Source of the DNA: Myrmaecium sp. VS I D KN 1
Lineage: Eukaryota; Ascomycota; Dothideomycetes; Valsariales; Valsariaceae
Direction: 5' to 3'
DNA: 64,000 nucleotides
Assembly (NCBI GenBank): GCA_019775845.1
Contig: JADQAV010000025.1
Location: 310,001 to 374,000, forward strand
The notes under the pieces were generated by a model that made no database searches, was not told where the DNA came from, and saw only the letters and a list, made by a program, of their open reading frames with translations. Within the stretch, counting starts at the first letter, position 1. Each line of letters opens with the position of its first letter. The position numbers and the translations under genes are program-made. Of the stretch, positions 628 through 62,387 are shown in pieces.

Positions 628-2464
628 CTAAAAATGCTCCTTCCAAAACCGAAACTGCACCTCCTCACACGTCGCCTCCCGACACGCCTTCTTGATATCG
701 CGCGCCGCGACCGTGGGCCCGCAGAAATAGACCCCGACATGCGTGCGCAAGCTGCCCTCGGTGCCCGCGGTGGCGGAAGCCATGTACGAGCGATCGAGGA
801 GGCCGTCGCGCATGGAGGCGAGCAGACGGGCGAAATCCGGGCGGCCAAAGTTCGTGCGGGCGCGCAGGGCGGTCAGGGGGTCCTTGTCGGTGCCCACGCT
901 GTTGAGGACGATGTTGTTGGCGGTGTCGAGGTCGACGCGTTGGGTGAGGTAGGTGTGGATGCGGAGGAAGTCTTCGTCGTCGGCGCCGTTGGGCCCGCCG
1001 GCCATGCTCTGCGCCTCCAGGCTGCTGAGCAGCGTTTGGAACCACTCGAAGCTGGACGTGTCCTTGCACACCCAGATGAACTCGACCCGGCGCAGCCGCT
1101 TGGGCGGGTTCGGCGAGAGGCGCAGGTGCCAGATGTTCTTCAGGATCGCCGCCCACGGCGTCACCCCGATCCCCGTCCCGATCAGCACCGCGATCTCGTT
1201 CTCGAACACGTCCTCCGCCGGCGCCCCGTACGGCCCGTCGATCCGCAGCCGCGGCATCCGCTGCCCGTGCTCCAGCGCGATCTCGTACATGCCCATCGGA
1301 TCCATCTCGTCGTAGAGCTTGGCTTGGGCTTGGCCAGCACCTAAGGCGTCGGCGAGCGCGCGGGTGAAGTCGCCCACCTGTCGGACGTGCACGGAAACGT
1401 AGGGGTCGAACGGGCAGGAGGTGATGGTGAAGGGGTGCCACTGATGGTAGCTGACGTCCGGGCAGTTGAGGAAGAGCCACTGGCCGGCCTTGTACTTGAA
1501 CGACGGCTTGCGAAACTGGATCTCGACGGCGTCTGTGATGCTCTTAGCAGATGAACCGAGCCGAGCGTACGAGATCAGACTTACCGTACGGATGACGGAT
1601 CACCTTGGTGATCTCCGTTTCGCGGCGAGCGCGGATCTCCCGGTAGAGGCGCTCCAGAAGGTAGAGTCCGCCCCCGACCAGCTCCCACCGCCATCCTTCG
1701 TACCCAAGGCAGTGGTCCCAGAACTCCTTCCCGGCAAAGGGAGAGATGGGATCGGTGGTGTCGCGCACGAAACAGCCGGTGGCGTGCGTGTACATCCCGA
1801 GCAGGAAGGGGACGAAAAGATGATGGGTGTACCAGAACGTCTCGAACGACTGTTGCCGTATCCTGGCGTGAGCGGTGGTGTACATCAGCATCATGCAAAA
1901 GAGCATGATGTGCCCGGTGATACCACCTGCTTGGGTGTAGTGGATTTGGATCGCCGTTTCTGGACGAACTTGCGTCTTCTCGACGTTGAAAAAGCTGGAG
2001 GGGGGTCATGTTAGTCCGACTCCGGACGCGGACTCGTCGGTCTCGGACTTACTTGACATAATGGCCCGCTGTATGAATGATAACGAAGAAGAGCATGGCA
2101 TACGCGACTTGCCGGTGAAACCAGATCGACTCGTCCAGAGGGAGCCACCGGATCTTCGGTCGCACGATGCGTAATAACGTTCGGCACATGGGCAACAGAA
2201 TCATCAAGGTATCCACGCTCAAGACCAACCCTGCACCACGCGAGATCCAGACGGAGTACTGCAGCGCGTTCAACGCCGCCAGGCGCTCATCTGTAGCTTG
2301 CTTATACCTGTAGCGTGTTAGATCTCACGGATCTCAGGGAAAAGAGCGAGTACCACCTACCATCCGACCGCGAACAGCGCCCAATGCAACCCCCAAAATA
2401 TAACGTAGAAAATAATCTTCCTCATGGTGAAAAGCCGCTTCCATCTCTCTAAAGCACTCATCAT
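628..2464 (-). CDS. noxA: NADPH oxidase catalytic subunit, NoxA/Nox1 type
   Basis: Catalytic subunit of the fungal NADPH oxidase, a flavocytochrome b that passes electrons from NADPH through FAD and two haems to oxygen, making superoxide. In fungi this isoform is tied to sexual development and hyphal fusion. Exons are 2464-2361, 2307-2053, 1994-1585 and 1532-628, giving 557 residues with every junction in phase. The N-terminus reads MSALERWKRLFTMR, typical of NoxA, and follows a doubled ATG; the second ATG may be the real start. Six hydrophobic helices hold the haem histidines (the HRQVAYAM to HTAGHYV helix and the MYTTAHAR to FWYTHHLF region). The FAD motif HPFTIT lies near residues 289-294 and the NADPH motif GTGIGVTP near 376-383. 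The family C-terminus FRFWKEHF is intact. There is no EF-hand, which excludes NoxC. It sits head to head with a p22phox-like gene. Confidence 0.95.
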
Positions 2465-5264
2465 GGCAAGTCCCTTTCCGTCAATCTCCGCAAATAATGA
2501 CAGAAATCAAATCATGCACGCGCAAGAAGACACGTGGCTGAAGCGGGTATCGATGCGTTCAAGGTCGTGAAGGAATCCGGTATGCAGCCCCAGTCCTGTA
2601 AAATCAAGGGAAATCGTTCCTATTAGGATAAAACAGAAGAGAGAGGTAAGTAAGAAGAGAAAAAAAGGTTTCTCCTCACGGATGAACCTGCACCGTCAGT
2701 AGAAGTGATGGGAAAAATCCGGCCAGCCGTACGAAGTGAAGAGATATGGTGATAGCTGGACAGAAAGCAAAGACAGAGAGTTCCGGTAAGGAAGAATAAG
2801 CTTAAGCAGTGGAAGACGGGGGCTGGAAAGGGTGGAGTAAGATGTGTCTTTCCGGATCTGGGGATCGACAGGATCAGGAGGCTAACGACGGAAAAGTGTT
2901 CCAGGCACTTCAGAGCGTTTTCGCTATGATACTCGGGCTTGGCTGATCGATATGCCGATGACAGCCCTCGAGGAGCAGGTCTACTAAGCCCCAGGGGAAA
3001 AAGGGCGTCTGCCCTCGATTGAGGATGGTGAAGGCTTGAAGGTAGCAAGCCTGAAGCACAGAGCGGCCGTCGCAGTGAAGAGCCTGCTGAGTGCCAAGGA
3101 GGAGGAGGTTTCCTTTGCAGAGTCGATGCTTGAACAGGCGTCTCAGGTTTGCGACATTCGGCGATCGATCATAGTCGCGCGGGACTCAGGATAGTCAATG
3201 CTGGGGATCTCGAGAACTTTAAGCTTCCTTTAAGCTTGGTGCTCGTGTCACTTGCGCTCTCGTACCCTCTGACGGAAGGGACGTCTGGCCGAACAGATCT
3301 ATTGCACGGCTGGTTTAGGTACGGTTCGAGCGTTGGAGTGGTCGAACGCGGCCAAGAGTGGTTCGTGCGACTGCCGCAGTAGTGAAATCGCTGGTGATGG
3401 ACGTGTTCGAACGCTCTCCTTTCTTTATGCTCTCGTGGCGTTCGGAGAGTTCCCGTCTCTTTCATGCATGGGTCAGTATCGAGCTGTGTGAAGCAGCATA
3501 GAAGCGATGTCGCGGAGTGGTGATGTCCGGTCTGGGGAAGTTGCGGAGAGCAGCAGCTGTGAGACGCAAGGGGTAGGCAAACTTGGCGCTTGAACGTTTG
3601 GGCAGAACCGCTTTCAGCAGGAGAACACTGGAAGGGGACGTATAGAGGTCAAGGATAATATCGAAATGGGAGAGGGGGAGAGAAGAGACACATAAAGATG
3701 CCAGGCAAGTAGTGGGGTCAGGTTGCGTAGTGCTCGCAGCAGAGATCGTTGAGGAACCCACGATGTGTAACCAGACGACGTCGTGCCCGGTGGACAGAGA
3801 GCAGACCGCCTTCCCGTCGCGGCGCGCCACCGGCGGCCCCCTGGTCTCTCGTCCTCACATCGAACCGAAGGGTGAGGGTGATCCATGGGCATCCCGCCTG
3901 CAGCTGTACGGCGTAGAACTTTATCACGGTCGTTGGGCCCGATTGGGGCCGTCCACCTGTTTCCAGGATTTTTGACGAGGGGACGTCGGCATGTCAGGAA
4001 CAACGGGGGCGGAGTCGTCCGGGGGGAGGGGAGAAAAACGACCGGCGGGAAGGCTGATTGGCAGCCGCGTCGGCTTCGCGTGGCGCCCGGGGAGCCTGTC
4101 ACGCCCCGGTTGAGCCCTGGGCGGGGGAGGTCGAACCAATCGCTGGCGCTCTCGTAGCGCTCGCTCTCCCGGGCCTCCGCACGAGGCGCCGTTATCTTTT
4201 TTATCCCGACGGCATTTTCCTCTTCCCCAGGGCTTTCGGAGGTATAATAGAGAATACATAAAATGGACTGGGCTGGCCGAACCACCACCATCAGCATTTT
4301 CTCCTCCTGGTGGAGACGGGATGAGAGGAAAAAGAGCTTTATGGTCTGCTCAGACCAGATGTCGGTCTTTTTGCGGATGGACCAACGGCAACGGCGGTCA
4401 GGTGCAATTTTGCTAGAGCTTCCAGTCAACGACGATAGACGCGAGGAGAGTAATTGTCACGGCGAGACGAGTCGATAGGAATATTTTGATAACCGCAAGA
4501 ATCGCGAACAAGGGGAAGCGAGCGAGTCAGTCTGTCTGCTTCGCCTCAGCCATCGCACTGAAATAACAGCACACGCGGCTGGGCTAAATTTATCAATGGA
4601 AGAAGATCCTCTGAAAAGCCGCCGTTCGCGTCCCATCCGCCACACTTGTCGCCCTGCGCGCTTGTCTTCACGATGGAAGGTGGTTGGGGTAGACGAGCGG
4701 GCGGTGGTCGTAATGTCTCAGCCGTGGACTCATTCATACGGCAAAGTGCCGTGGACTCGAACGAACGGGGCGAGCGAAGTCGTCTCATCTCGCTCCGAAA
4801 GAAGAAGAAAAGACAAGACCCAGGATGGCTAGATCGTGGAATCGGGGGACTGCTCACGATCATCGAATGATGATCCCACGTTGCAGCCCTGTTGCTCTGC
4901 TGCAGGAGGGTAAAAGCTCCGTTCGGCACTTGAAGGGTGGATGATCTCACACCTTCGGTACTTAGGATGTGATGGAATGGAATGCTTGCCCGAACGAGCG
5001 AAAAGAGGTTCGCATCATGACCATGGGTGGTAGTGGAGGTGCAGGTGGTGGAACGGCTCCTGCTCACCGCATATCTCTCGGGAGGCAGCGTGAGGGAAAG
5101 AGATGTGAATGCGGATGAGGATGTGGAGACACAAAGATGCTGCAGATGGTGGAGGTTCTTCTCGCCCAATAGCGGACGTGTTACACACGTTTGGCCGGGG
5201 GTGCTGGTGTGACAACGTCCGGGAAGCTCACAGGCACCCGTGGATGTGGTGGATCGGCCAAGGC

Positions 5265-5300
5265 AAGGGACTGGGTAAGGGACTGGGCGAGGGACTGGGC
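5265..5300. repeat. Three tandem copies of a 12-nt unit
   Basis: The unit AAGGGACTGGGT/C is repeated three times with one or two substitutions. It lies in the noxA/noxD intergenic region, outside any gene. Confidence 0.8.
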
Positions 5301-5942
5301 AAGCCACCAGGGGACCACAAGGCACCAAGGGATCCCCCCCGGGCGGTTACAGGCGACAGGGCATCATCATTGGGGCCTGGGGCAGGGGAACCCTCGGGAC
5401 CCTCGGGGCGCCTAAACCGCTTGGGATGGAGAAGCAGCAGCAACAGCATGGATTGGAACAGCCTTGGAACGGCAGCAGCAGCAGCAGCAGCTCGGCTGGC
5501 CCCGCCCCGCCCGCCCAAAGCGATGCACCCACGACGTCCCTTCCCCTCCCATCCCATCCGCATGAAATGGAATCCACATGTACCTAAAGCCCCCGGGCTG
5601 CCCGCCCCTGCTGGACCCGAGACGACAGCAGTTCGAACTTTCTTCCCCCATCCTGACACCCGTCGCACATCACACTGAGATTCATCCTGAACACGAGAAA
5701 TTCTCCCTTCCTCTGTCGCTCGCTCTCTCTTCACGATACGAACGCAGTAGCTCAGCCTCGTCATCGGCATCGTCAAACGGTCGATCGATCAAAACCCGCC
5801 ATCCCCCCCCCCGAAACCCCCGGAGCGACTACCGGTGAAATAAAAGAACTTCGTCATGCGCATTCGATAGCGGACAAGGAAGGCTGGCACTCGCTGCGCG
5901 AAATTTAAACTTCCCTTCGCTTTCCATACTACGGCATTCAAG

Positions 5943-5961
5943 AGACAGACAGACAGACAGA
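5943..5961. repeat. GACA tetranucleotide microsatellite
   Basis: Just under five GACA units lie about 140 bases upstream of the noxD-like start codon, probably in its 5' UTR or core promoter. Confidence 0.85.
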
Positions 5962-6103
5962 CCGCTGGCTCGGTTCACATATACCAAACAACACTTCGCT
6001 TTTCCCCAGTTCGGATCAAGACATTGCGTTGCTTGCAGAGACAAAAGCTTCACCGTCCGTTTCACTGCTGCTGAGCTTCGCTGGGTTTCTTGGGTGAGGG
6101 GGC

Positions 6104-6714
6104 ATGGGACGACTCATCAAGAACCACTGGGCCCGGCTGATCATCCTGACCGCCGCAGCATGTAAGTCCAGTCCGATCCAGCCCAACATCTCCCACAGGA
6201 CGAAGAAACAAAAGGAAAGAAAAGCAAGACCGAAGCAGCAAAACTGACACACCACCACCAGACCAAGCCGCCGCCGGCCTCCACGGCATCTTCTGGCCCA
6301 AACTCTTCTGGGACTTCCTGACCAAGACGCTCGACGGCGCCGTCAAACCCACGCCCATCCTCCAAATCCTCAACATCATCCTCGGCCTCGTCGGGCTCGC
6401 CGTCGAATGGCCGCTGCGGCCTCTTGTCGCCGGCGTGCCGGCCCTGCACCGCTCCATCCCCGCCCGCCTGATCGTGTACCCGCTGGCGGCCCTGGCGGCC
6501 GCGCTGCTCTACCAGGGCACCAATGCGGCGCTGTATTATGTGGTGGGTATGGGGGTGTATTTTTGGGCGTATAGTGAGGGGGAGGTGAGTGTGATTGTCC
6601 CTTCTGTTGGAGCGAGTGTGAGTGCGATCCTTTGGCTGACCTTTTTTTTGTTTCTAGATTGTTTGTCCGGAGCCGTGGACGTTGCCAAAACGCAATTTCC
6701 GTGGAAGCGTCTGA
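6104..6714 (+). CDS. NoxD/PRO41-like p22phox-type membrane adaptor
   Basis: A 145-residue protein made almost entirely of hydrophobic helices. Exons are 6104-6161, 6262-6584 and 6658-6714, with GTAAGT, GTGAGT and CAG/TAG signals and clean phases. The start is fixed by MGRLIKNHWARLI, which resembles a conserved fungal family of the same size. By eye it matches animal p22phox in order and spacing: initial MG, a central EWPLR (residues 68-72; p22phox has EYPRG), then two helices ending in GVYFWAYSEGE (117-127; p22phox has GIYLLAAVRGE), followed by a short Pro/Trp tail. Fungal NoxD/PRO41 is the ER-membrane partner of NoxA/Nox1, so the head-to-head noxA neighbour supports this call. The fold and size are seen directly; the identity as NoxD is inferred from similarity and position. 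The alternative is an unrelated small ER membrane protein. Confidence 0.72.
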
Positions 6715-7566
6715 GGCTGATCAGCCTCTTCTCCCTTTTTTCGATCCTGTCATCTTTTTTTTTTTTCGAATCCGCTCGGTTCATAATACCCCTAAGCATA
6801 ATCCTCTCTCTCTCTTTAAGCTCTACGACTAAAAAGAAGAACAGAAAATAAAAAAAGCTATGAGCAAAGAAAAGGGAGTTTTTCCGCATCGCGAAGGCGT
6901 TTTTCATACCCATCATGACCTGTTTTTTCGTTCTTTCCACGGGGGGGGGGGTGCCGCCCTGCGCATGATGTATTGTATATACGTACTGGATCCGTCTCAT
7001 CGGTTTCGTTGGGAAATGAATGAATGATCAATTGAAGATTTAAGCATCCATCGTCCGGGGAGAAAAGTGAAGTGACGTTTTGTCTGTCTGTCCCGTCGCT
7101 TCCTGATCCCGTCATGGCTTTCCTTCCTTCCTCGCACTGCAGCAGCAGCAGCAGCAGCAGCAGCTGGACCCAGTATGTGAGCCGGAAGCAGCGAAGCACA
7201 CTCACCTCACCGAGTACCGCCTTCTGTTCACAGCCGTGTCGAAGAAACATACTTCACCCCCATCAGAACTACCACTCCTACTGCTTACACTCCACTACCA
7301 TTCACTATCGTTTTTTCCTTTCCCAAGTCGCAAGACGACATTGCAACTCTCAGTTCTATCTGGAATATACTCACATCGCATGTACTAAACATACATATCG
7401 CCCACGCGGAACACCCATACACCAACTTCCCTCACAGCATCCGAATCCCTCTCCACACAACCAACCCTACCAAGCCAACACACCTGGCTCCATCCACACA
7501 CCAACTACTCAAATCCCTCCCAACACCAACTACTCAAATCCCACCCAACACCAACTCCCACCCACC
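6715..7566. other. Intergenic: noxD 3' region and orphan-gene leader
   Basis: The first part has poly-T and poly-A runs expected of a 3' UTR. The second part is a pyrimidine-rich leader with a CAG repeat and, at about 7500-7555, two imperfect copies of a roughly 25-nt unit rich in CCAAC. The frame of the next gene stays open upstream to 7072, but that extension is low complexity and was not taken as coding. Confidence 0.5.
7140..7163 (+). repeat. (CAG)8 trinucleotide repeat
   Basis: Eight perfect CAG units upstream of the orphan gene start at 7567. They lie in an open frame with that gene, so they would encode polySer if translation began further upstream. Confidence 0.9.
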
Positions 7567-9783
7567 ATGGGCGCCATCCTCAGCACCCTCCAACACCTCC
7601 TCCTCCCCCCCTTCATCGCCCTCAACAGCACCCTCTACCTGCGTCTCGCCCGCATCCTCGCCTACCTCGAGCAGCGCATCTTCCTCGCCTTCTTCCTCGC
7701 CTGGAGCGCGCTGTACGCGTGCGACGCGTTGCTCGTGCGGCTGCGGTGCCGCACGGAGCGGGCGAGGGGTCAGGAGGGGGAGGGGAGTGGGGTTGAGGAG
7801 CGGGTGCAGCAAGCGTGGAGGGGCAGGGTGGAGGAGGTGGAGGGGAGGTGGAGGGGTTATGGGGGGTGGTGGGGGGAGAAGGTGAGGGGGGTTGAGGAGG
7901 GGGAGGGGTCTGTGGAGGATAGGGGGGATGGAGAGGGGAAGGAGGATGGGGAAGAGGAGGAGGAGGAGGGGGAGGAGGAGAGCGTGGCAGTGAACCAGCC
8001 TGCGGAGTTGACGGAGGAAGAAGCAGCGGACGAGGGAGCGATAGCAAGAGTCACAGCCTCCGAACTTGGGCAGAAGCTGCTCTCGCGATGGAAGCTCAAA
8101 GAAGAAGAGACGTCCGCGGCGCGGATAGAAGCCGAGCTGTCAAAGCTGGTCAAGGAGCAGGAAAGGCGGATCGTGCAGTGGAAGGAGGAGGAGGCGGAGG
8201 GGCTCACGAAGATCCACGAATCCTTACTTGCGCAGCTGGGGAAGACCGACAACGTCGAGGCGATGCTGAAGTCTCTGGACGACACCAAGGCCCGCATGGA
8301 GGCCGCCTTCCAGGCGGCCATGACGCAAGCGATGGCGCGGTTGGAGGAGGAGAACCGCGTGTGGAGAGGGCTGATGGAGTCGAGATTGGCCAAGGAGACT
8401 CGAGCAAAGTTCCACGCGGGGCGCCAAAGCCGTTCCAGAAGCGCACCGGATGGCCATGGTAAATCGATGATAAAGATCCTAGACGGTCTATGCAACAAGC
8501 TGGAGGCGATTAAGAAAGACGGCGCGGACCAGCCAGCCCCGAGCGACGATCTCGATGACGCCCGGGAACTCATGCCAAGCAACTCGCCAGATGTCCTCAA
8601 ACCCAGCACCAGCACCACAGTACAGCCTTACGTCTTCACGTCCGAGCCAGCTCCGGCAAGCGTCGTCGCCGGTCCGAGGAGGACCAACTTGCCAATTCTT
8701 CCATGGTGGAGAGGGATCGATCCCGGAAACCACGTCATCCAGCCGCAGGGCGGCGGCGATGACGAGACGAAGAGCGAGAATAAGAATGGTCCCCGCGGAA
8801 TTAAAAGACCCCGCGAGAGAAGAAGACCTCGCGAGATAGTAAATCTCTTCGAGGACGCGCAAGTGGAGAAGGAGACAGACAATCCCTTCGAGGACGCGGA
8901 AGAGGAGAAGGACTTATCAGATCTCGTCGAGCGTTACGCTGCCTGCCGGATTAGCAAGGGTACCGATGAATCCGTTCCTAGCAGCAGCCGCAATCCATTC
9001 GTTCCAGCGTTGGAGGATAAAGGTGCTCGCACCGATCCAGCTCAGCCGCAAATCGACACCGAGGACGAGACGGAGTCGGAGGCGGTGATCGAGGATGAGG
9101 ATACCTTTCGCACTGTACGAGTGAGCTTGGAGGAGTCGCTGAGGAAGGCGCTGGGAATCGTCACCAGCTCCGAGAGGGTCTATCAGTCCAACATCGACCA
9201 GCATCCGGTTCGCATCTCGGTGACGGCCCCGTTGTCGGGAGGCCAACCGAGCCAGCATCCCTTGCTGCGTCCGCCTCCGTTGTCAGGCAGCCAAGAGAAT
9301 CAGAGTCCCCTTCTGCGTCCGCCTTCAAGTCTACTAGGCCCAGGCCAGGAGACAAGGTCACTACCGGCGACCCACAAGACACCTCCATGGACTCCCACCG
9401 GGCCGAGCGGGCCATGCTCCGAGCCGACTGATTTTCCCTACGGTAATCTATCCCCAATTCCTGGGTTTAACCCCCTGTGGGGTGCAGATCCGTTCAGCCA
9501 CGAAGCATTGCCTTCTTGGCCGTCGTCGAGTTCTTCCTCCGATGTCCCTCTGGAGCTCCAAAGGAAGGCGCGGCCGAAGAAAGAAACCAAGTCCAAGGCG
9601 GACACCCGGGATACCAAGGCCAAGGCTGACACCCGAGAAACCAAGTCCAAGGCGGACACCCGAGAAGCCAAGTCCAAGGCAGACGACCAATCGACGGCGG
9701 ATGCAAAGCCTCAGGGACAGTCCAAGAAAGGGAAACAACCCAAGAAGAAGTCGAAAAGGAAGAAGAAGGGCACAACGTTTTGA
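7567..9783 (+). CDS. Hypothetical protein with N-terminal membrane segment and coiled coil
   Basis: I do not recognise this 738-residue single-exon protein. The start at 7567 has a good context (CACCATGG) and begins the first non-repetitive sequence of the frame. Residues 1-60 are hydrophobic (LLLPPFIAL, then IFLAFFLAWSALYA) and would give one or two membrane segments. Residues 75-140 are a Gly/Glu-rich acidic linker, and residues 155-290 form a charged alpha-helical, probably coiled-coil stretch. The remainder is disordered, Pro/Ser-rich and acidic, with RKRPRERRR-type basic patches. The C-terminus is strongly basic and contains four 9-residue repeats. The layout would suit a membrane-anchored scaffold, but nothing assigns a function. 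Composition suggests fast evolution. Confidence 0.7.
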   Translation: MGAILSTLQHLLLPPFIALNSTLYLRLARILAYLEQRIFLAFFLAWSALYACDALLVRLRCRTERARGQEGEGSGVEERVQQAWRGRVEEVEGRWRGYGGWWGEKVRGVEEGEGSVEDRGDGEGKEDGEEEEEEGEEESVAVNQPAELTEEEAADEGAIARVTASELGQKLLSRWKLKEEETSAARIEAELSKLVKEQERRIVQWKEEEAEGLTKIHESLLAQLGKTDNVEAMLKSLDDTKARMEAAFQAAMTQAMARLEEENRVWRGLMESRLAKETRAKFHAGRQSRSRSAPDGHGKSMIKILDGLCNKLEAIKKDGADQPAPSDDLDDARELMPSNSPDVLKPSTSTTVQPYVFTSEPAPASVVAGPRRTNLPILPWWRGIDPGNHVIQPQGGGDDETKSENKNGPRGIKRPRERRRPREIVNLFEDAQVEKETDNPFEDAEEEKDLSDLVERYAACRISKGTDESVPSSSRNPFVPALEDKGARTDPAQPQIDTEDETESEAVIEDEDTFRTVRVSLEESLRKALGIVTSSERVYQSNIDQHPVRISVTAPLSGGQPSQHPLLRPPPLSGSQENQSPLLRPPSSLLGPGQETRSLPATHKTPPWTPTGPSGPCSEPTDFPYGNLSPIPGFNPLWGADPFSHEALPSWPSSSSSSDVPLELQRKARPKKETKSKADTRDTKAKADTRETKSKADTREAKSKADDQSTADAKPQGQSKKGKQPKKKSKRKKKGTTF
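9586..9693 (+). repeat. Four 27-nt repeats coding TKSKADTRE-like units
   Basis: In-frame tandem repeats near the 3' end of the orphan gene. The nine-residue unit reads T-K-S/A-K-A-D-T-R-D/E; the fourth copy begins A-K-S-K-A-D and decays. The DNA copies are nearly identical, so the expansion looks recent. Confidence 0.9.
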
Positions 9784-10599: not shown

Positions 10600-12015
10600 T
10601 CAGAGATACACCCTCCTCGCGTCTTTCGAATAGCTCTCGATCGGACAGTACGGGCATTTGAAGCGTCCATTCTTGCTGAGCCGCTCCATAGACTCCCGGC
10701 AGATCACATGGCCACACGTCATCATCATGGCCGGGTTAGCATCTGTCGCTTGTTCCTTCGAAACTGGACACACGAAGATGGAGTGGAATTGGTAGCCGGG
10801 AGGGAGTGGGATTTCGACCTGTAAAGTGGCGTTAGCGATACGGCAAATGGTAAATTTGAAGGGGAAACTCGTACCGGAAGCTCATGCGATGTCGTCCACT
10901 CCGTGTGCTTCTGCTTCATGATATTTTGAAGCTTGAGGAATGTTGGCAGCGCGATGCTGCCTGCGGTTGCGGCTATGTAAAGAGGGGAGTCCGCCGAAAG
11001 CCCTAGTAAGGAGCAGAATTCCCGTGTGAATGATGTTGCCACCTCTTCCCATGCAGAGTCGTTATGAAACAGTCGCCGATATGGAGAGTCCCAAACGTTG
11101 GTATAGAATGCCATGGCTCCGATTAGTTGCTGCAGCTCCTTGGCGTAACGGTACTGGAACGGTTGGAACTCTTTATATGCATATTGCCATGCTCGCACAG
11201 GCCCTAGTTCAGGATCCATCGTCGGAGATTCGGAATCATGGCCCATGTACAGGCAGATGAACTGTAACCGGCACAACTCAAATTCCAGATTACTGCCGCG
11301 GTTCTCCAGCACCGTGCGGTTCTGCCGGGCCCACTGGATGGCGGGAGTGAGGTTCTTCTGCATCCGAAGCTCGTGGAGGATGTTGTACATCTCACCAAAC
11401 TGCTCTTGGAGTTTCTTCGAGTCGAATTTTCCGTTTGCAAGCTCCTTCTGCCAGACATCCTCCATGTAGGGGTCTGGTGTTCCAGGAGTAGGCTCCGGGA
11501 CCGGTGCTTGTCGGTTTGCTTCCTCGATGAAGGTGGAAGCTACGGAGAATTGTCCTTCACGCAGGAGGTGCATGGCGAGCGCACGATTGATCAGAACCGG
11601 GTGGGAAGATAGGGCATCGTTCTCGGCGCTCGGAAGAGGCTTATCCTTGAATTTCTGTAGAGGGGCGATCTTAGTATGCGCTTTCAGCGGAGCGAATACC
11701 GCGGTGGCGGCGGTCCCACCTTGTCAAGGGCTTTGGAGTAACCCTTCAAAGCCTCATGGATGGGCTTCAGATGTTTGTTTGCATTGTCTAGCGGAGTCTT
11801 CGTGGCATTCTTGAGCTTCGCCAGGGCGAGCCGCCCAGATTCTGGATCTGGAGATAGTATTAGCTCTGGGATCCTACCAGACGACGCAACGCCATACCTG
11901 CTGCTATGCCCTCTCTCGCCCGCTCCATAAGCTCTATGACCTGGTCGATGTCCTTTATGCTCATCCCCAGATTTTCCTTCTCTAACCCCTCGTGTTCCTT
12001 CCTAAGAGCTTCCAT
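10600..12015 (-). CDS. RMD5: GID/CTLH ubiquitin ligase RING subunit Rmd5/Gid2
   Basis: RING-like subunit of the GID (CTLH) E3 ligase, which ubiquitinates gluconeogenic enzymes after glucose return. Exons are 12015-11898, 11847-11720, 11654-10875 and 10818-10600, giving 414 residues. Junctions restore family sequence (for example [15 protein letters not shown] and [13 protein letters not shown]). The LisH/CTLH part is represented by [20 protein letters not shown] (about residues 99-118). The C-terminal degenerate RING reads [20 protein letters not shown], then HVICRESM and FKCPYCP, with the Cys/His pattern of Gid2. The length is normal for the family. It shares a 533-bp divergent promoter with the STB6-like gene. 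Confidence 0.93.
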
Positions 12016-36337: not shown

Positions 36338-38419
36338 TCAGTCGATGACAATGACAGGATGGTTCCCCGGAGGAGAAACGACCTCGAATCCTTCAACATC
36401 GCTATCCTCATCACTCTCCATCATCTCATTAGTTAAGGGCAGATCATCCATTGCGACCTCAATCTCGCTGGCCTCTTCTTCGTCTTCTTCGCCGTCAAGT
36501 TCCTCTCGCCGGCGCTTGAGCGAGCCCACTTCTTGCTTCGTTGGCTCTTTCCCCTTGTCGTTCCCGTTCAGCCTGGGTTCTCTGAGGCCCCTTCGAACGG
36601 CTTCCGCCGCTCTCTCGGCCTTCTCCATCTCCACGAGGGTCTTGCACCACTTCCGCCAGTACTTCGGCTTTCTCTCCTCATCGGCATTCCGTACTTCCGA
36701 CCCGTTAACAGTCTCCAGATCTAGAGCTTCCGCCCGGGTATCAGCCCAGAACCAGCTCTTCCCAGCCATCTTATAGATGCGCTTATCGTGATTGTAAGCA
36801 TAATCTCGCGCGTAAAGGGTCCCGTCAAGCCCATGCGAAGGGTCGGGGTATGTCTCGTCTAGATCGTTCGACGCAACCGTATCATCCTTCATTGACTCAG
36901 CCTGAGCTCCAAGCTCCTGAGGTGGCGGAAACCACATCAGCATAGCATCGTCTTCGTAGACGCGGCCGAAGACGCGATGGAAAGGAAGCATCAGTTCTTG
37001 TGTCGGGCCATGTATAGGGTAGAGCTCGTCATATCCGCTTAGAACTGGCGGGAGGGAGGTTCCGTCATGGTTTGTATATCCGTCATAAAGAGCGCCAGCT
37101 GCACGGGCAGGGTCCAGCGACCAAGCGTCGCCAGATACATGGACCGTAGTGTTATAAGGATGACCGTCGTCGTAGTCGTTATCACTGGCCTTGTCGAGGT
37201 GAATGAACTTCAACTTGATCGACCGAATCCGGAGAAAGTCCGTGACGGCAGCGCCGGCGGTTCTAGGTGTGATGCGCACGACGTCGCCAACGAGAAGAAG
37301 CTCCGGCCCTAGGTAGATACCTTTACAGTAGATTTCAGCGCATGGCCATATCCCTTTGAACTGGTACTTCTCCAGCAAAGAGAATGTGCGCGCCGATTTG
37401 AAGGCATGACGAATCGTGGGATGCCACTTATCCTCCGGCACGCCGCGTAGGAACTCCTGCCAAAAGGTGAAGGGGCGTATCTGGTGCATAGGCACATATT
37501 TGTATTGTTTTGAAAGTGATTTGTCTTCGCTATTAGGATCCGGTAATGGCTCGACGCGGAAGCCAGTGTAATTGATGCCACGGTTCTTCGGAGACTCTTC
37601 GACTAGATCTTCGACCGGTATATCGACAGTCGCAGGCTGGCTAACCATGCCAGCTTCCCAAACAGGATGACCGGTGTATTCCTTACGGGTGGTGTTCCAA
37701 ATTTTGAACTCATTTTCCGTGTCATCAAAGCATATCTCCTCCCCATCGGAGAGCTTCCGCACGAAAAGAACGAGCTCGCCTATTCGTGGGATCCACGCGG
37801 GCTTCTTGCTGATATTCTCGAACATATCCGGGAGCAACGTCCGTTCGGCTCGCCAATCCATACTGAAGGGCTCTTGAATCCTAACGTCTATTTCTCCCTT
37901 GCGTTGCAGCAAGTTGATCAACATCCGGTAAGCATCAGGAGTTCCTTCGTCATCCAAAGCTTCTTTCACATGCAACTTTGGACGGCCCTTGAGCTTCGGT
38001 GACGGTAGCGCTGCCTTTGGTTGAGACGGACTGGTGGTCGCCAGGCCACCTCCACTCCAGGGCTTGCAGACAGTACATGGACATCCGATGTTGCTCCCGT
38101 CATTCTCCATTAAGTGAAGAAAATGGGGGAAGAAACGGTTCGGCGAGTCGAAGGTCTTGTGGTTGGGGTTGCCGAACAGCCATCTATCTGCACTATGACT
38201 TCCGCCAGCGTTAGATCTTTTCTTTTCGTAAACCGCGTATCCTTCCGGTAAACGATCCAGTAGGTATCTGACTCCAGGCTTCGACTCCTTTCTGTAATCC
38301 ATCCAGAGCTTCGCTAGCTTCTCCCGGTGGAGTATCGGATCGACAAGGTAGTAATCGTGACTTTTGGGCCGATGAGTGCGGTCACCATCGGAGACATCTT
38401 TGATCCTGACTACAGACAT
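36338..38419 (-). CDS. Clr2-type transcription-silencing protein
   Basis: Resembles cryptic loci regulator 2, a subunit of the fission-yeast SHREC deacetylase/remodelling complex that silences heterochromatin. It is a single exon of 693 residues. The N-terminal Clr2 domain (about 20-135) has DYYLVDPILHREKLAKLWMD, LLDRLPEGYAVYEKKR, RWLFGNPNHKTFDSPNRFFP and a Cys cluster CPCTVCKPW. The C-terminal Clr2 domain (about 210-560) includes IGELVLFVRKLSDGEEICFD, PFTFWQEFLRGVPEDKWHP and YLGPELLLVGDVVRI. The end is charged and acidic, with EDEEEASEIEVAMDDLP-like composition. Family assignment is from the domain pattern; SHREC membership here is inference. Confidence 0.82.
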   Translation of the reverse strand: MSVVRIKDVSDGDRTHRPKSHDYYLVDPILHREKLAKLWMDYRKESKPGVRYLLDRLPEGYAVYEKKRSNAGGSHSADRWLFGNPNHKTFDSPNRFFPHFLHLMENDGSNIGCPCTVCKPWSGGGLATTSPSQPKAALPSPKLKGRPKLHVKEALDDEGTPDAYRMLINLLQRKGEIDVRIQEPFSMDWRAERTLLPDMFENISKKPAWIPRIGELVLFVRKLSDGEEICFDDTENEFKIWNTTRKEYTGHPVWEAGMVSQPATVDIPVEDLVEESPKNRGINYTGFRVEPLPDPNSEDKSLSKQYKYVPMHQIRPFTFWQEFLRGVPEDKWHPTIRHAFKSARTFSLLEKYQFKGIWPCAEIYCKGIYLGPELLLVGDVVRITPRTAGAAVTDFLRIRSIKLKFIHLDKASDNDYDDGHPYNTTVHVSGDAWSLDPARAAGALYDGYTNHDGTSLPPVLSGYDELYPIHGPTQELMLPFHRVFGRVYEDDAMLMWFPPPQELGAQAESMKDDTVASNDLDETYPDPSHGLDGTLYARDYAYNHDKRIYKMAGKSWFWADTRAEALDLETVNGSEVRNADEERKPKYWRKWCKTLVEMEKAERAAEAVRRGLREPRLNGNDKGKEPTKQEVGSLKRRREELDGEEDEEEASEIEVAMDDLPLTNEMMESDEDSDVEGFEVVSPPGNHPVIVID

Positions 38420-39706
38420 CGTGGTGGCTTGAAGAAACAGGAAAGGTGTGAAGGGTTGAAGACGTTGAGAAGTTGTGGCCCCGCGACGTCAGTCTTGTTG
38501 CTTGTGTGAGCTGGTTAAGCTTGTGACTTCAAACGGAAACTTTGGTATTGATCGCGTCACCCAATACGCGAGAAGAAGACAACAGTTGGAAAAGCGCAGG
38601 GTATCAAGAAGCATGAACAAACAAACTAGTGACTGCTTGAACGCTCAAATCGGGCTTCGCAAAAGCAGCTTTACTCAACGGCCGCTGACTATGGAGCGAC
38701 TGAAAAGGTTCGGAATAGCAACTTGGCACACGGCAGGCAAATCATTGTAGACTTGCGCGCAATTGGTCAATTAGCGTGCGCAGAGAGTGTATGTACTCGT
38801 TGAAGTCGGACGTAAAGCTGCGAACTGTTGATGGTCGTCGCACATGGGAAGCGATCACTAGCTTTGGTGCGCGCCGCCGCGCATAACTCGGGAACCAACG
38901 CTAGCACCCGACCCTGAGCTTCCCCGGACGGACTTCTGCCGAAGCCAACATCAACCACTTCTAATATAATTAGGCGTCTTTTCCACCATGTCACAGCTTT
39001 ATCGAGTCCTGGCTTACATGGAGTTCAGAAGTTAGGACTGCCTAGTTTGAGCGGAGCTACTCTCCGGTCCTCTGTTGTACTCGAATCTCAAGCTGTATCA
39101 GGCTATGGTACTTCACACTAAGAAGACAGTGCAGCATCATCTGCGTTCAGAGGACCGTTCGCAAGTGATCCGCCGCCTCTCATCAGCAGTTCATTTACCT
39201 TTGCCTCAGGGATAGGGGCAAGCTCTCTGACCGAACCTAGGATCGGCTGAGGAGGCAGCAAATGGGCACGCCGGAACGGTCGATACCCCTGTACTGAGAA
39301 AGACACAGGCCACTAGCGCCGCATCCATCCGATGTATCATGCCCGTTGGCGCCCCGACACAGCACGTTAGAAGACATCCCGAAGACTCTAAAGAGTTCTG
39401 CTCTCCTAATAGGGCTTGGGTATCGTACCCATGCGCAAAGCTATGGTGCAACATGATCGGTGCGGGGATCTGTCAAGCCCGTTCCCTCAAAAGTCCCAGC
39501 TCTGCTGGCACCTGCCCCAGACTATCTCGGCCTGTATCTCCTTCAGCCCCTCGATATCTATCCATGGACGTAGAGCACGAAAGACGGTGCCTTGGCCGAC
39601 TCTGCAATCGCTCGTGCCCTCGAAAGCGAGCGTTCCAGCTTATTCTTACCTTGTGAACTGCGATCCTTTTCATGAATTTTGATATTATCCAGCAGCTCTG
39701 ACGAAT
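38420..39706. promoter_or_regulatory. Divergent promoter region, Clr2 / membrane protein
   Basis: 1.3 kb between divergent starts. Short frames only; no domain, repeat or RNA gene recognised. Confidence 0.45.
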
Positions 39707-54802: not shown

Positions 54803-57800
54803 ATGTGAGCTTCAGCTTCTGAGAAGTGCATATCCCCGTCACTAACTATGCATCTTTAGGTGTAAGTAAACCCACAACCTCTTTCGCCTGGCTGAAGGCA
54901 CCAGAGTTAACACACTTAGCCAAAATTGACAAGCTTTCCATCCTGGGGTGAGATAGAGATCCTTTCACGGATTACACGAAACCTAACATATTGCCAGTGT
55001 CCGCTCTTTCGATAACACCCGAAGTGAGACGATCCAGTTCCACACGCCACTTACCTTAATCGTAGGGTACAATGGATCTGGAAAAACCGTAAGTTTGCTG
55101 CTATGTTCTGTCCCAAGCCGCCACTAACGGCAAGTTTTGCAGACCATCATTGAGTGTCTGAAGTATGCAACTACTGGAGAGCTTCCCCCGAACAGCAAGG
55201 GTGGAGCTTGGATCCACGATCCAAAAGTGGGTGTTTCATTGTTCCTTCAGTCGAGCTCACGTCTCTGACACCGTTCAGCTATGTAACGAGAAGGAAGTGC
55301 TGGCGCAGGTGAAGCTGTCCTTCCGGGCAACTTCTGGTGCGAAGATGGTGGCCACTCGAAGCTTGCAGCTGACAGTAAAGAAAGCTTCAAGAACGCAGAA
55401 AACTCTCGAAGGGCAATTGCTTATGTTGAAAGATGGAGAGCGTACAGCCATCTCCTCCCGTGTTGCGGAACTGGATCAGATCATGCCTCAGTATCTGGGT
55501 GTGTCAAAAGCAATTCTGGACTCCGTCATCTTCTGTCATCAGGATGAGAGCTTGTGGCCTATGAGCGCGCCCGCGGATCTGAAGAAAAGGTTTGATGAGA
55601 TTTTCGAAGCAATGAAGTACACGAAAGCTATCGACAACATCAAGAAACTTCGCAAGGTGCAAAATGAAGAGCTTGCGAAGTTTAAGATCATCGAACAGCA
55701 TGCCAAGGAAGACAAAGACAAGGGCGAGCGCGTTGAGCAGCGGACAACGGAATTGTACGATGAGATTGAGGGGCTTCGGGAAGAGGCCAGTGCGCTCGAT
55801 GGGAAACTGAAAGAAGCGAATGCGAAATCAAGGGAGGCTTGGGATCACGCCGCCAAATTTGAGAAGATCGTTGCCCGGCTTGAGGGTAAGAGGATCGAAG
55901 CAAAGGCTCTCGAACGCAATGCTTTGGAGTTAAAAAGCAGTCTTCGCGTGATGGAAGAGTCGGACGAAGAGCTCCAAGCCACCCTGGACAAATATGAGGA
56001 TCGCGTTTCGGCATACTACCAGGAGCGAGAAACCCATCGTCAACAATACGCGGAGCTTACGAAGGAAATCGAACAACGGCGTGGAATTCTCAGCGCGAAG
56101 CAGAACGAAGTAGGCCGATATGAAGCCGAGAAGAGCGCGTATGAGCGCCAGTTACAGAACCGCGAGGACCTAATCAAGGAGACCGCCCGCAGGCACAACA
56201 TTCGCGGGTTCGATTATGACATCTCAGAAGAGAACGTACGAGAATTCATGGAGAGAATCGGGAAGATGGCGCGAGATCAGACCGCTGCCTTTGAAAGAGC
56301 TAGACAGGAGACCCAGGAGGCGCTGCGAGGGGCGCAAAACACTTTGAACGAGCTCAAAGAACGCCGCTCTGCGCTGACGCAGAGGAAAGAGTCTGCTAGG
56401 ACATCGATAGCCGCCAATGATAGGAAGATTCTCACCCTCCAAGCCGAATTGGACCGAATCGATATCGATGAAGGCGGGAAAGCAGCTCTGGAGTCGGCGA
56501 TCGGAGACATCGAGCGTCGTCTAGCCACGGCCAAGTCCGAATTCAGCTCTGCAAGCTGGGACGACCAGATCAGCGGTCTTGAGGCTAAGCTTCGCGACTT
56601 GGATGAGAGAAAGGATAAACTGGATGCAGAGTTGATTCAAGGAACGAAACAGGCCGGTGACTCTGCTCAATTGGACTTCTTGCATAAAGAGCTCAAAGAC
56701 AGACAGCAGAGACTGGAGACCATGATTGGAGCACATGGAGCGAAGATCTCTGAAGCGACCGGCTTGCAACTCAATCTTGACACACTCGATCGGGATTACC
56801 AGACTACGATTGCACAGAGGACCGCCGAAATCAAGGAGGCCGAACTTGAGCGGGACGGGTTGAGCCGTGAGCTAGAGCAGCTGGAGTTCAGGCTGAAGTC
56901 GGCCAAGGATGAGTTCAAGAAGAAGAGAGAAGAGAAGAAGCAGTGCGAAGAGACGATCCGCAGTGTTACTGAGGAAGAAGACATTGACGAGTTCCCGGAG
57001 TACCTTGAGCGATGTGAACGAGATTATATGACCGTCAGCACCGACATTGCCAATTTCAGAGAGATGGGCGACTACTACAAAAAGTGCTTGTTAGCGGCTG
57101 AGTCACACAGTGTATGCCAGCTGTGCCGCCGGTCATTCAAGGAAAAGGAGAAGTCCCTTTTTGTTGATCGTATGCGAAGAATGATCGACCAGGCTACACA
57201 AGAGATTGAGGAGTCAGGGAACATGATTGAAGTGGAAGCTTCCGTCAAAGCAGCCAGGAACGCACAGCAAAGCTACGATTCCTGGCAGACCCTCAAGCTC
57301 GAAGTCCCCAAGCTGGAGAAGGATTGCAAGCAGCTGGAGGCGCGACGGGAGGAGCTGGTCCTCAAGCTGGAAGGACATGACCTGGTCATTCATGAACGGC
57401 AGGAAGCCAAGCAGGAGGTCGAATCGATGTCGAAAACGGTGCAGAATATCGTAAAGTACCACACCGATATTGGTAGTTTTGAGGCCCAGATTAAGGAACT
57501 ATCAGCCAAGCAGAAGAGTGCCGGGCTTTCACGGGGTCTGGAGAAGATTCAGGAAGACCTCAGACAGGTCAATGAGCAGTCAAGGTCGCTGCGTGCCAGC
57601 CTGAGCCAACTCACCTCGGAGAAGGAGCGCACTCGCAGTCAGATTAACGGTCTCGAGTTGGAGGCCCGCGACGTCCGGGCCAAGCTCAGCACTGCAATCT
57701 ACCAGTTGAAGGAGAAGGACAGCCTCGCGGCCCAGATCAAGGATCTCAAAGCTCATAATCACGAACAACAGGAGGCCCTGCGGCAATTAGACCGGGACAT

Positions 57801-59069
57801 CCAGGCACTTGTACCTCAGATTGCGCAGGCGCAAGCCCGATATGATGAGATCGAGCGCCGCGGGACCGAAAAGGAGCGCGACCTTCAGCAGCAGGCTTCC
57901 AAACTATCGGACAGTGTCCGTGCTCTGAAGCAGGCAGACCAGGAGATTCACACGTACATTGACCGGGGCGGCCCGCTTCAGCTTGACCGTGTCCGTAGGG
58001 AGATCGAAAATCTCGAGACCGAGCTTGGCCGTCTTGACGAAGAGGTGCGTCAAACGACCAAGGAGATCAAGAACATTGAGGACAAGCTACGGAACGTCGA
58101 CGATACGAAGCGCGCCATCAACGATAATTTGAGGTTCCGTCGCAGCGAGAGGGATCTCGAGAGCGTCACGGCGGAGATCAAAGAGCTTGAGAGCCACAAT
58201 GCCGAAGCCGACAAGAATCGATACGAGGAAGAAGGCAACAAGTGGCAAGATCGACGCAATGCGATTGCTGCCGAGCAAGCCACACTGGTTGGCGTTATCA
58301 AGTCGAAGGACCTGCAACTTACAGAACTCCTTAAAGATTGGGAGACGGATTACCAGGATGCCGCATACAAATACAAAGAAGCCCACATCAAGGTCGAGAC
58401 GACCAAGGCGGCCGTGGAGGATCTGGGACGGTACGGCGGGGCGCTGGACAAGGCGATCATGAAGTATCACAGCATCAAGATGGAGGAGATCAACCGGATC
58501 ATGGAGGAGCTGTGGAAGAAGACGTATCAGGGCACGGACGTGGATACGATCATGATCCGGTCGGACAGCGAGAACGTGAAGGGGAACAAGAACTACAACT
58601 ACCGGGTGGTGATGGTGAAGCAGGACGCGGAGATGGACATGCGAGGGCGGTGCTCGGCGGGCCAGAAGGTGCTGGCCTCCATCATCATCCGGCTGGCGCT
58701 GGCGGAGTGCTTCGGGATCAACTGCGGGCTGATCGCGCTGGACGAGCCGACGACGAACTTGGACCGGGATAACATCCGCGCGCTGGCGGAGGCGCTGGCC
58801 GAGATCATCCGCATCCGTCGCCAGCAGAGCAACTTTCAGCTCATCGTCATCACCCACGACGAGGACTTTTTGCGCTGCATGCAGTGCGCGGACTTTTGCG
58901 ATAATTATTACCGGATTAGCCGGAATGATCGGCAGAAGAGTATTATTGAGCGGCAGAGTATTGCTGAGGTGAGTTTTTCTTTTTTTTCCCCCCTTTCTTT
59001 CTCGCCCTTCATTCTTTCTCTCTCGAGAGCACATGGCTGACGTGAGGATGCAATACACAGGTTGTATGA
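54803..59069 (+). CDS. RAD50: DNA repair ATPase Rad50
   Basis: SMC-like subunit of the Mre11-Rad50-Nbs1 complex, which tethers and processes DNA ends. Proposed exons: 54803-54804, 54860-54861, 54920-54947, 54998-55088, 55143-55226, 55279-58968 and 59061-59069, giving 1301 residues, the family length. Spliced, the N-terminus reads [17 protein letters not shown]; the ATG is split between the first two exons. Walker A is GYNGSGKT (34-41). Two long coiled coils flank the zinc hook CQLC (682-685). The ABC signature is SAGQK (1195-1199) and Walker B ends LDEPTTNLD (Asp1224, Glu1225). The last exon adds only Val-Val-stop, the usual ending. Everything from 54920 onward is firm; the two tiny 5' exons are inferred from excellent splice signals and family sequence. 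Confidence 0.93.
54860..54861 (+). other. Putative 2-nt exon completing the RAD50 start codon
   Basis: The sequence reads AAAAT|GTGAGC ... CTAAC ... TTTAG|GT|GTAAGT ... CACTTAG|CCAAAATTGAC. Joining AT + GT + CC gives ATG TCC AAA ATT GAC, which is Met-Ser-Lys-Ile-Asp, the expected Rad50 start. The flanking introns are 55 and 58 nt, both within the normal range for this window. No other upstream ATG yields the family start with GT-AG introns. Confidence 0.6.
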
Positions 59070-60268
59070 GTGTATTTGATAGTCAGCCTAAGGCTCGAAC
59101 AATTTAGTTCACTTACTAAGATCGAAAAAAATGGGGATCAAGGGGACCACGTGCCGGGATGGGAATTTATCTTGCATCCGAGGTCCCTTTCCGATCATCG
59201 ACCGCTCGTGCTCTGCCTCAGGTTCGAGGGATTCAATGCGATTTTCTTCTTCTGGTTTCCTTTCGCTCGTACTGTATACGGCTTCGTCGAATGACTGTAT
59301 CAAGGTCCCTCGAAGAGTACCTGTTTTCAGGATGGAAAACAGGAAAAGGGTCGAGTCAGGGCAGGGGGAATCTTCAAATCCGACCCCGACCAGGGGCAAA
59401 ATCCCATGTTTCCCCTCCACCTCCCATCCAGGGGCACACACGCACACGCACGCCCAAGCTCACGCCGTTTTCTCCTCCTTCCCTCCCTCCCTTCCTCCCG
59501 GCCACACCCCGCATGCTGCAGATCCTGTCTAATTTGACTACCACTTACTTCATTTATTCATATCCCATCAACCTCATCCATCCATAATTTCCTCTGTATT
59601 CACTCAGGCGCGGCGGTAGCAAGTAACGGTAATAAATCCGAATATGAAAAGATTTCCACCAGACCTTTTATTTCCCATGCCATCCCCCATTGTTCCCACT
59701 CGCTGCCCTGTCAGATCACCCCGCTAGGTACTTACTGATTCCACCTACTCGGTACCTTACATACGGTACGATACCCAGCTACGCCCTCCTCAGTTAGCCT
59801 CCCCATCCGCCCATCCACCAGCTCTCCACCACCCACCCGCCCGCCCACTCACCCACCCACCACCCATCCGGCATCCGGCCCATCCCATCTGGATCGATCA
59901 TCTTTTCTCCTCCACTCTCCCCCCCCGTCCGTCTCCCTCCCTCGCTCCCTCCCTCATTTCTTTCTCTCCGCACCACGCCACACCACACCATCCATCCCAT
60001 CGCTTTCGGGTGCTCGAGAGTGGCTTGCCCGCATGCGTCCTACTGCTGCCACCCTGCCCCATCCTCGACCAAGTCCACATCATCATCATCAGCAGCAGCA
60101 GCATCGTCACCATCGACATCCACGCTCACATCGTCCGCATCCCTCCACCTCCACGTCTCACGCGCATATCCCGATCGCCACACAGATCTCGATGTACTGA
60201 ACGTTTCATCACCCCGCGCCTGCCCACCTGCCACCTGCCGCCTGCCGCCTGCCGCCTGTCCCCCCCCG
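59070..60268. promoter_or_regulatory. RAD50 3' region and wc-2 promoter/leader
   Basis: 1.2 kb. The right part (about 59780-60000) is a long pyrimidine-rich tract dominated by CCCACC/CCTCC runs. The wc-2 frame is open back to an ATG at 60020, so the leader could be partly coding. Confidence 0.45.
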
Positions 60269-62387
60269 ATGCCCAGCGTCGCACCGCCGCCCATCCCGTC
60301 CGGTCTCTTGGACCAGCCCGGCCTCGTGCCCGCCGGGCTGCTGCCCCCGGGCCTCGACGTGGACCTCGTGAACATCCAAGATCTCGATCTGTCCCATTTC
60401 GACCAGAGCCTCGACCTGGCCCAGTTCGATCAGAGCCTCGATCCCACCTCCCCCACACGATCCCCGTATACCGCCGATACCACCACCACCACCACCACCA
60501 CCACCACTGCCCACTCGACCAATACCGCCGCCGCCGCTGCCGCTGCCGCGCAACAACCAGATCGCACGCCACAACAACACCCCTCCGCACCGCCGCAAGG
60601 CTTCCCTCCCACACCACCGTCCCACCCTCCGCCTGCCGCCGACACGAGCGCCGATCCGTACGCCATGGTCCCCAATCACAACATGGCTGCCGCCGCGGCC
60701 GCCATGGGCGCGGGGCCCCTGCCGACCGGCTTCGGTCTGCCTCCTCACCCTCCTCCTCCCCCTCCCGCCGCCGCCGCCGCGGTGCCGAGCAACAGCACGC
60801 TGAGCGAGTTCACCAAGCGGCGCAACTGGACGCAGCGGGTGCTGGACGAGCTGCGCGACCTGCTCCACATCCTCACCCCGGACGGACGGATCCTGTACGC
60901 GTCCGCGTCGAGCCGGCAGCTGACCGGGTACGAGCCGAAGGAGCTGGCCGGCCGGTTCGTGTACGACTTCATCCACCAGGACGACCGGGCCGTCTTCGTC
61001 CGGGAGTTTAACGAGAGCATCGCGTCCGGGAACCCGCTGCGATTCTTTTACCGGTTCCGGAAGGCGGATGGGTCCTTTGGCATCTTCGAGTGTCATGGTC
61101 ACCCTCACCTGGCCCCGCCGGAGCCCGGGCCCGGGCCGGTTCCGCTGCCCCCGTCGGCGGATCCGTCGGGAGCGGGGGTGTCGGCGGCCTCGTCGACGAG
61201 CGCGGCGTACTGCCGTGGCTTCTTCATGATGGCCCGGCCGTACCCAACCAAGAACACCGCCTTGCTGGACAGCTTCCTGGAGCACAAGATCGAGAACGAG
61301 CGACTGACGCGCCGGATCGCGGATCTACGACGGGAGGAGCAGGAGGAGAACGAGGCGGCGGAGCGGAGCTGGCGGGAGAGCGGCGGCGCCGGGGGGAGCA
61401 TCGGCACGGCCAGCACGAGCACCAGCCCGATCCACCAGTCACCCCACCTCCCCCACCATCTGGGCGCCGGACCGGGCAACCCGGCGGGGCTGACGGCGAC
61501 GAACCCGGCGCTGACGCGGCAGAACCTGGACGAGGCCCTCGCGGCGCACCGGCCGGACAGCATCACGGACAAGATGGCGCGGTACGAGGGCGGCGCGGCG
61601 GCCCGGACGCACCTCGATCAGATCGAGATGCTGACCGGCTTGCGCTACCGCGACGGCGAGCGCAGCATGGGGATCAGCACCGGCGACGCGAGTCCGCTGC
61701 TCATCAAGGGGGATGCGGGGATTGCGATTCCGATCGATAGCGCGCGAGGGGGTGTTGGGGGGGGAGGAGGGGGCGGCGGTGGGGGGGGTAGCGTGAGTAG
61801 TGACCGTGACCGTGATCGCAAGAAGAAGATTAAGGTGGCGGATGAGTATGTGTGCACGGATTGTGGGACGCTGGATAGTCCGGAGTGGCGGAAGGGTCCG
61901 ATGGGCCCGAAGACGTTGTGTAATGCTTGTGGCTGTGAGTTTGCCCTTTCCCTCTCTCTCCCTCTCCGGTTTTCTTCCTTTTTTATACCCGTCTAATCCG
62001 TCCATCTATTCAGTGCGCTGGGCGAAGAAAGAAAAGAAACGCCAGCAACAACAGCAGCAACAAGAAAACCAACAGCAAAATGGGACCGATAGCCCGTCCA
62101 CCACCCCTGTGGGCCACGCTTCTGCTTCTGCGACGCAAGCTGCGGCGGCGGCTGCGGCGGCGGCGGCGCAAGCGATGCCCCCACCGCCGCCTCCGTCGCT
62201 TCAGCAGCAGCAGCAGACTCAGCAGACCCTTTCGTCTCCGACGGGGGTTTCGAGGAGTAGTCCTGTGACGGGGGTGGGACAGGGGATGGGGCAAGGGACG
62301 CTGGGGCAAGGGTCAGGTTCGGGGCAGGGGCAGGGTCAAGGGCAAGGCGCGATGGGGCAGGGGGAGGGGGATCGGATGGTGTCGTGA
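60269..62387 (+). CDS. wc-2: White collar-2 photoreceptor partner (PAS + GATA)
   Basis: GATA transcription factor that forms the blue-light White Collar complex with WC-1. Exons are 60269-61934 and 62014-62387, giving 679 residues; a start at 60020 in the same frame would add 83 low-complexity residues. The N-terminal half has acidic repeats (DLDLSHFDQSLDLAQFDQSL), a Thr run and Pro/Ala tracts. One PAS domain lies at about 185-290 (LRDLLHILTPDGRILYASAS, LAGRFVYDFIHQDDRAVF, FRKADGSFGIFECHGHPH). The GATA finger has Cys at 529, 532, 551 and 554 (CTDC, 18 residues, CNAC). The 79-nt intron lies directly after it and rebuilds CG|LRWAKKEKKR. The C-terminus is Gln-, Ala- and Gly-Gln-rich. A single PAS and no LOV domain separate it from WC-1. 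Confidence 0.93.

Follow-up and report, generated by a model that had tools for sequence, protein, structure and literature searches.

A divergent noxA–noxD gene pair in Myrmaecium sp. VS I D KN 1 and the linkage of both genes in other fungi

We analyzed a stretch of 64,000 nucleotides from Myrmaecium sp. VS I D KN 1 (assembly GCA_019775845.1, contig JADQAV010000025.1, positions 310,001 to 374,000), hereafter the window, in which noxA, the gene for a gp91phox-like catalytic NADPH oxidase, lies beside noxD, the gene for a small p22phox-like protein of the PRO41/HAM-6 type. The window was read and the exons were spliced by script and by hand. The noxA gene occupied positions 628..2464 of the minus strand, with four exons (2464-2361, 2307-2053, 1994-1585, and 1532-628) encoding 557 amino acids, and noxD occupied positions 6104..6714 of the plus strand, with three exons (6104-6161, 6262-6584, and 6658-6714) encoding 145 amino acids. 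All five introns had GT-AG borders. The genes are adjacent and divergent, with 3,639 bp between their start codons and no gene recognized between them, and these spliced models on opposite strands bear out the head-to-head adjacency claimed in a first-pass annotation of this DNA. Both proteins are ordinary, and the gene pair is real and correctly read.

NoxA carries haem, FAD, and NADPH sites and passes electrons across the membrane to oxygen. In the Pfam analysis, the protein encoded here matched Ferric_reduct, FAD_binding_8, and NAD_binding_6, all above cut-off, and no EF-hand family was reported at E up to 1; three domains without EF hands are the hallmark of the fungal NoxA (NOX1) subfamily. 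Among the best 120 of 1502 matches, it was at most 83% identical to Dothideomycete-type NoxA proteins, and the nearest named one was 82% identical. On identity, it groups with NoxA and not NoxB, since the noxB-like paralogue of its own genome, on contig C29, was only 43% identical; apart from that paralogue, a single copy was found, that of the window, along with two further distant ferric-reductase-like matches on contig C13. In a maximum-likelihood tree of 55 NoxA rows, with no NoxB rows among them, the protein nested within Dothideomycetes (support 100/99) and grouped with Boeremia, Lophium, and Cenococcum (96/90). In some Botryosphaeriales, namely Neofusicoccum (P0131, P0148) and Macrophomina (P0177, P0201), an apparent further NoxA-like copy, diverged and on a different contig, was observed; for Macrophomina, four NADPH oxidases are listed in one paper.

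The small protein is NoxD/PRO41, as its sequence indicates. It matched DUF7727 (PF24853) with 168.2 bits over residues 1-127, covering profile positions 1-139 of 139, and the same family was matched by all 51 relatives sampled. Among the best 120 of 1187 matches, nine were deposited as PRO41 or pro41, and the nearest named NoxD was 78% identical; no close relative was thus present among the rows listed for either protein. The identification made in the first-pass annotation, and the profile search it proposed, therefore came out on the side of the PRO41/NoxD family. The fungal NoxD/PRO41/HAM-6 proteins of Sordaria, Podospora, Botrytis, Neurospora, and Magnaporthe belong to the same Pfam family over residues 1-127, and FgNoxD, with 146 amino acids and two introns according to PMC8928025, is built like the 145-residue, two-intron gene found here. 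When the own genome (25.66 Mb in 66 contigs) was searched with NoxD at E up to 10, only the three exons of the window were matched, and a separate noxD elsewhere, which the annotation had considered, was not found. No NoxD relative was confirmed in viral contigs or prokaryote genome contigs, as expected.

The likeness to p22phox was analyzed by fold and by sequence. The fold comparison used the predicted model of P0001, a homologue 76% identical to NoxD, and not NoxD itself. Four long helices were predicted in this model, and human p22phox was its best match among solved structures (Foldseek ranks 1 and 2, E 0.06-0.14), with 110-115 residues superposed at 2.2-2.6 Å and 15-16% identity, which suggests that among solved structures p22phox comes closest to the predicted fold of these relatives. 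Human p22phox (CYBA) likewise shows a four-helix membrane fold in the NOX2-p22phox structures 8gz3, 7u8g, and 8kei, but it has 195 amino acids with a long proline-rich tail, and no significant sequence similarity to NoxD was found. The p22phox profile PF05038 (Cytochrom_B558a) gave no match to the NoxD of the window at E up to 1, nor, with the limit raised to E 10, to any of 51 relatives, although filters drop most matches above 0.1. It also gave nothing across the own genome, yet this is uninformative, as 14 of 14 control genomes were silent too. The single NoxD sequence had no match in the PDB at E 10, the NoxD profile found there just one TARP chain (E 3.3), and hhalign aligned NoxD and p22phox over 17 columns with a probability of 0.2%, which is not significant. 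The three places at which the small protein had been aligned by eye with p22phox did fall in register, but the alignment score was within that of shuffled sequences.

Among the other parts of the complex, a NoxR-like reading frame (TPR and PB1) was located on contig C46 of the same genome, a Cdc24-like frame (PH and PB1) on C24, and a Bem1-like frame (PX and PB1, the PB1 match being below cut-off) on C10. Rac was not sought; of the components that were located, the two membrane subunits are the only linked ones. On contig C29, the noxB-like gene lies at 89.8-91.6 kb and a weak tetraspanin-like frame, possibly Pls1, at 934.8 kb. A parallel NoxB-Pls1 linkage was rejected, as this sole tetraspanin-like frame was below cut-off and approximately 844 kb from the noxB-like gene.

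In animals, the genes for gp91phox and p22phox are unlinked. To follow the fungal pair in other genomes, the NoxD list (120 of 1187 matches) was cross-matched by script with two NoxA lists (120 of 1502 and 120 of 2093). Since these hold the best-scoring tenth or less of the matches, nearer relatives were sampled. Rows from source contigs of at least 20 kb were used (83 for NoxD and 159 for NoxA), and a shared contig was read from deposited contig sizes equal to the base. Among the matches listed, sixteen contig sizes, from 105,362 to 5,700,105, were identical for NoxD and NoxA; the genus agreed in all sixteen, and no unequal pair came within 50 bases. Fifteen of the 16 species named in both lists shared a contig, and the sixteenth contig match was Coniosporium, with rows under different species labels. 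Locus tags, which show neither orientation nor spacer size, were comparable in seven of the species listed. Given NoxD first and NoxA second, their numbers differed by one in six, Pycnora praestabilis (M1827_001331/001332), Caeruleum heppii (M1817_000249/000250), Thelocarpon impressellum (M1832_003044/003043), Sclerophora amabilis (M1837_000549/000548), Heterodermia speciosa (HETSPECPRED_001330/001331), and Helicocarpus griseus (AJ79_06241/06240), and by two in Rasamsonia emersonii (VTN96DRAFT_10003/10001). The species with immediate neighbors fall in Candelario-, Coniocybo-, Euro-, and Lecanoromycetes and two unplaced leotiomyceta genera. Shared contigs were also seen in Lineolata, Aplosporella, and Coniosporium, which belong to the Dothideomycetes, the class in which the NoxA tree places the window. 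The linkage is thus seen in at least five classes and is no local oddity, nor is it confined to close relatives, an outcome that, combined with a lack of co-expression, would have counted against the first-pass proposal. No published report of a conserved noxA–noxD linkage was found in the literature searched, largely titles and abstract openings, and an earlier report is possible.

We consider it very probable that the locus encodes the membrane core of the NADPH oxidase A complex of fungi and that the two genes have been neighbors since a shared ancestor. In this complex, NoxA would move electrons across the membrane to oxygen through its haem, FAD, and NADPH sites, and NoxD would be a p22phox-type four-helix partner that may stabilize NoxA and link it to soluble regulators. 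By analogy with Botrytis and Magnaporthe, where PRO41/NoxD is reported as a physical NoxA partner, the two proteins probably form a heterodimer in this species as well. Both genes would have been inherited as neighbors from the common ancestor of Dothideo-, Euro-, and Lecanoromycetes and allied classes, and would have been separated, or never joined, in Leotiomycetes and Sordariomycetes. On the simplest reading, the linkage would go back to an ancestor of the Dothideo/Euro/Lecanoro side of the Pezizomycotina; it may also be older, with a loss on the Leotio-/Sordariomycete side. Those two classes lie across a weak midpoint split of the NoxA tree (55/87), which takes in Botryotinia, with Magnaporthe and Sordaria outside it.

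Several observations weigh against this reading. The comparison of gene order across Pezizomycotina suggested at the outset gave adjacency in distant classes by tags, but in three model species noxD is not beside noxA: Botrytis cinerea (noxD Bcin01g08690, noxA Bcin05g00350) and Magnaporthe (NOXD MGG_09956, NOX1 MGG_00750), and Sordaria (pro41 SMAC_04848, nox1 SMAC_05007); the linkage is therefore dispensable. Diplodia seriata was the one discordant species among those named in both lists, and its rows may stem from different assemblies. The sequence comparisons with p22phox, as described above, were not significant.

That the linkage is passive, the genes having been chance neighbors in the ancestor and still unseparated in these lineages without shared regulation, has close to an even chance of being true. 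It agrees with the separation in the three model species, with a 3.6 kb spacer that is long for a shared promoter, and with the failure of an exact-motif search to find a shared motif there. Moreover, in filamentous ascomycetes genes stay on their chromosome while their order within it is shuffled, according to PMC3219968; this can explain shared contigs, though not neighboring tags, and because of it, shared contigs alone are weak and the neighboring tags carry the argument. PMC5937819 describes gene-order divergence in Pezizomycotina as 0.236 ln(x)+1.055 and gives the half-life as a protein distance of 0.095; by our arithmetic from this regression approximately 7% of neighbor pairs are left at a distance x of 0.6. 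Such fast decay stands against a passive linkage, given the immediate adjacency in six of seven tag-informative species, although this comparison is not a formal test, as the seven species share descent, the pair had been picked in advance, and there was no control pair.

It is possible, if somewhat doubtful, that the linkage was selected for co-regulation, with the shared intergenic region driving both genes together. The conserved presence of the linkage in several classes and the reported action of both subunits in one complex suit this explanation. In conserved pairs such as GAL1-GAL10 and niaD-niiA, two fungal genes of one function diverge from a common spacer, as noxA and noxD do; the spacer here differs in being 3.6 kb and in having no known shared regulator. 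It spans 2465..6103 (3,639 bp, 56% GC) and contains one 12-bp tandem repeat at 5262-5303. In the literature, bidirectional pairs are defined by spacing under 1 kb, and by that measure the spacer is long for a bidirectional promoter; the 3,639 bp separate start codons, whereas the limit of approximately 1 kb applies to transcription starts, which long 5′ leaders could bring closer together. In Sordaria, where the genes are unlinked, PRO1 is reported to bind at the promoters of nox1, pro41, pls1, and nox2 (PMC6589725, citing Steffens 2016), which points to joint control of nox1 and pro41 in trans. The ADV-1 motif is given in PMC5217103. Neither exact GCGCTTA nor GGCGCTTA, the ADV-1 and PRO1 motifs, was found in the spacer, where only GGCGCTTG occurs, at 3585. 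With 360 PRO1 sites in 25.7 Mb genome-wide, approximately 0.05 are expected in the spacer; since chance expectation is only approximately 0.3 for GCGCTTA and 0.05 for GGCGCTTA, their absence says little. A hidden gene in the spacer is disfavored, as its two longest open reading frames had no Pfam match and whole-frame codon scores of the spacer frames did not exceed 0.18, whereas three noxA/noxD exons kept out of the training scored 0.29-0.43 and the nine training frames themselves 0.17-0.50. Some stop-free 150-base stretches reached 0.32, which leaves room for a small unrecognized exon.

An ancient selected flavocytochrome locus is an unlikely, speculative extension; it would date from an ancestor of Dothideo-, Euro-, Lecanoro-, Candelario-, and Coniocybomycetes and would have withstood the fast decay of gene order because its divergent spacer set matched expression, and Sordario- and Leotiomycetes would have swapped this linkage in cis for PRO1 control in trans. 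Finally, it is extremely improbable that the neighbor of noxA merely encodes some unrelated membrane protein with four helices and no known function: Pfam names the family of the small protein a domain of unknown function and the p22phox comparisons were negative, but all sampled relatives fall in that one family, PRO41 names recur among those listed, PRO41/NoxD is reported to be a partner of NoxA, and p22phox is the top fold match of the homologue model.

Hyphal fusion and the development of fruiting bodies and infection structures are reported to be under the control of NoxA-type oxidases. If the gp91phox and p22phox equivalents travel together through much of the Pezizomycotina, NoxD would be easy to annotate, and genomic context would give independent support for it as the NoxA partner. 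Linked and unlinked lineages would then provide a natural experiment on whether subunit balance needs co-location. The linkage across fungal classes hints that staying together may matter and raises a testable question of subunit co-regulation; balanced expression of the two subunits could confer an advantage.

In the window as a whole, no RNA family reached its gathering score. Other genes were also observed. Beside noxD, a 915-codon open frame (7036-9783, plus strand) had no Pfam match and was rich in charged residues, with a lysine-rich repeat at its end. A CTLH-domain frame (10728-11723, minus strand), with a RING-like stretch seen by eye just downstream, is possibly a GID ubiquitin ligase subunit. 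Further along lie a transcription-silencing protein of Clr2 type (36341-38488, minus strand), a RAD50-like ATPase frame (55162-59037, plus strand; AAA_23, SbcC Walker B), and a frame with PAS and GATA domains (59798-61993, plus strand), resembling by domain make-up a white-collar-1-like light receptor.
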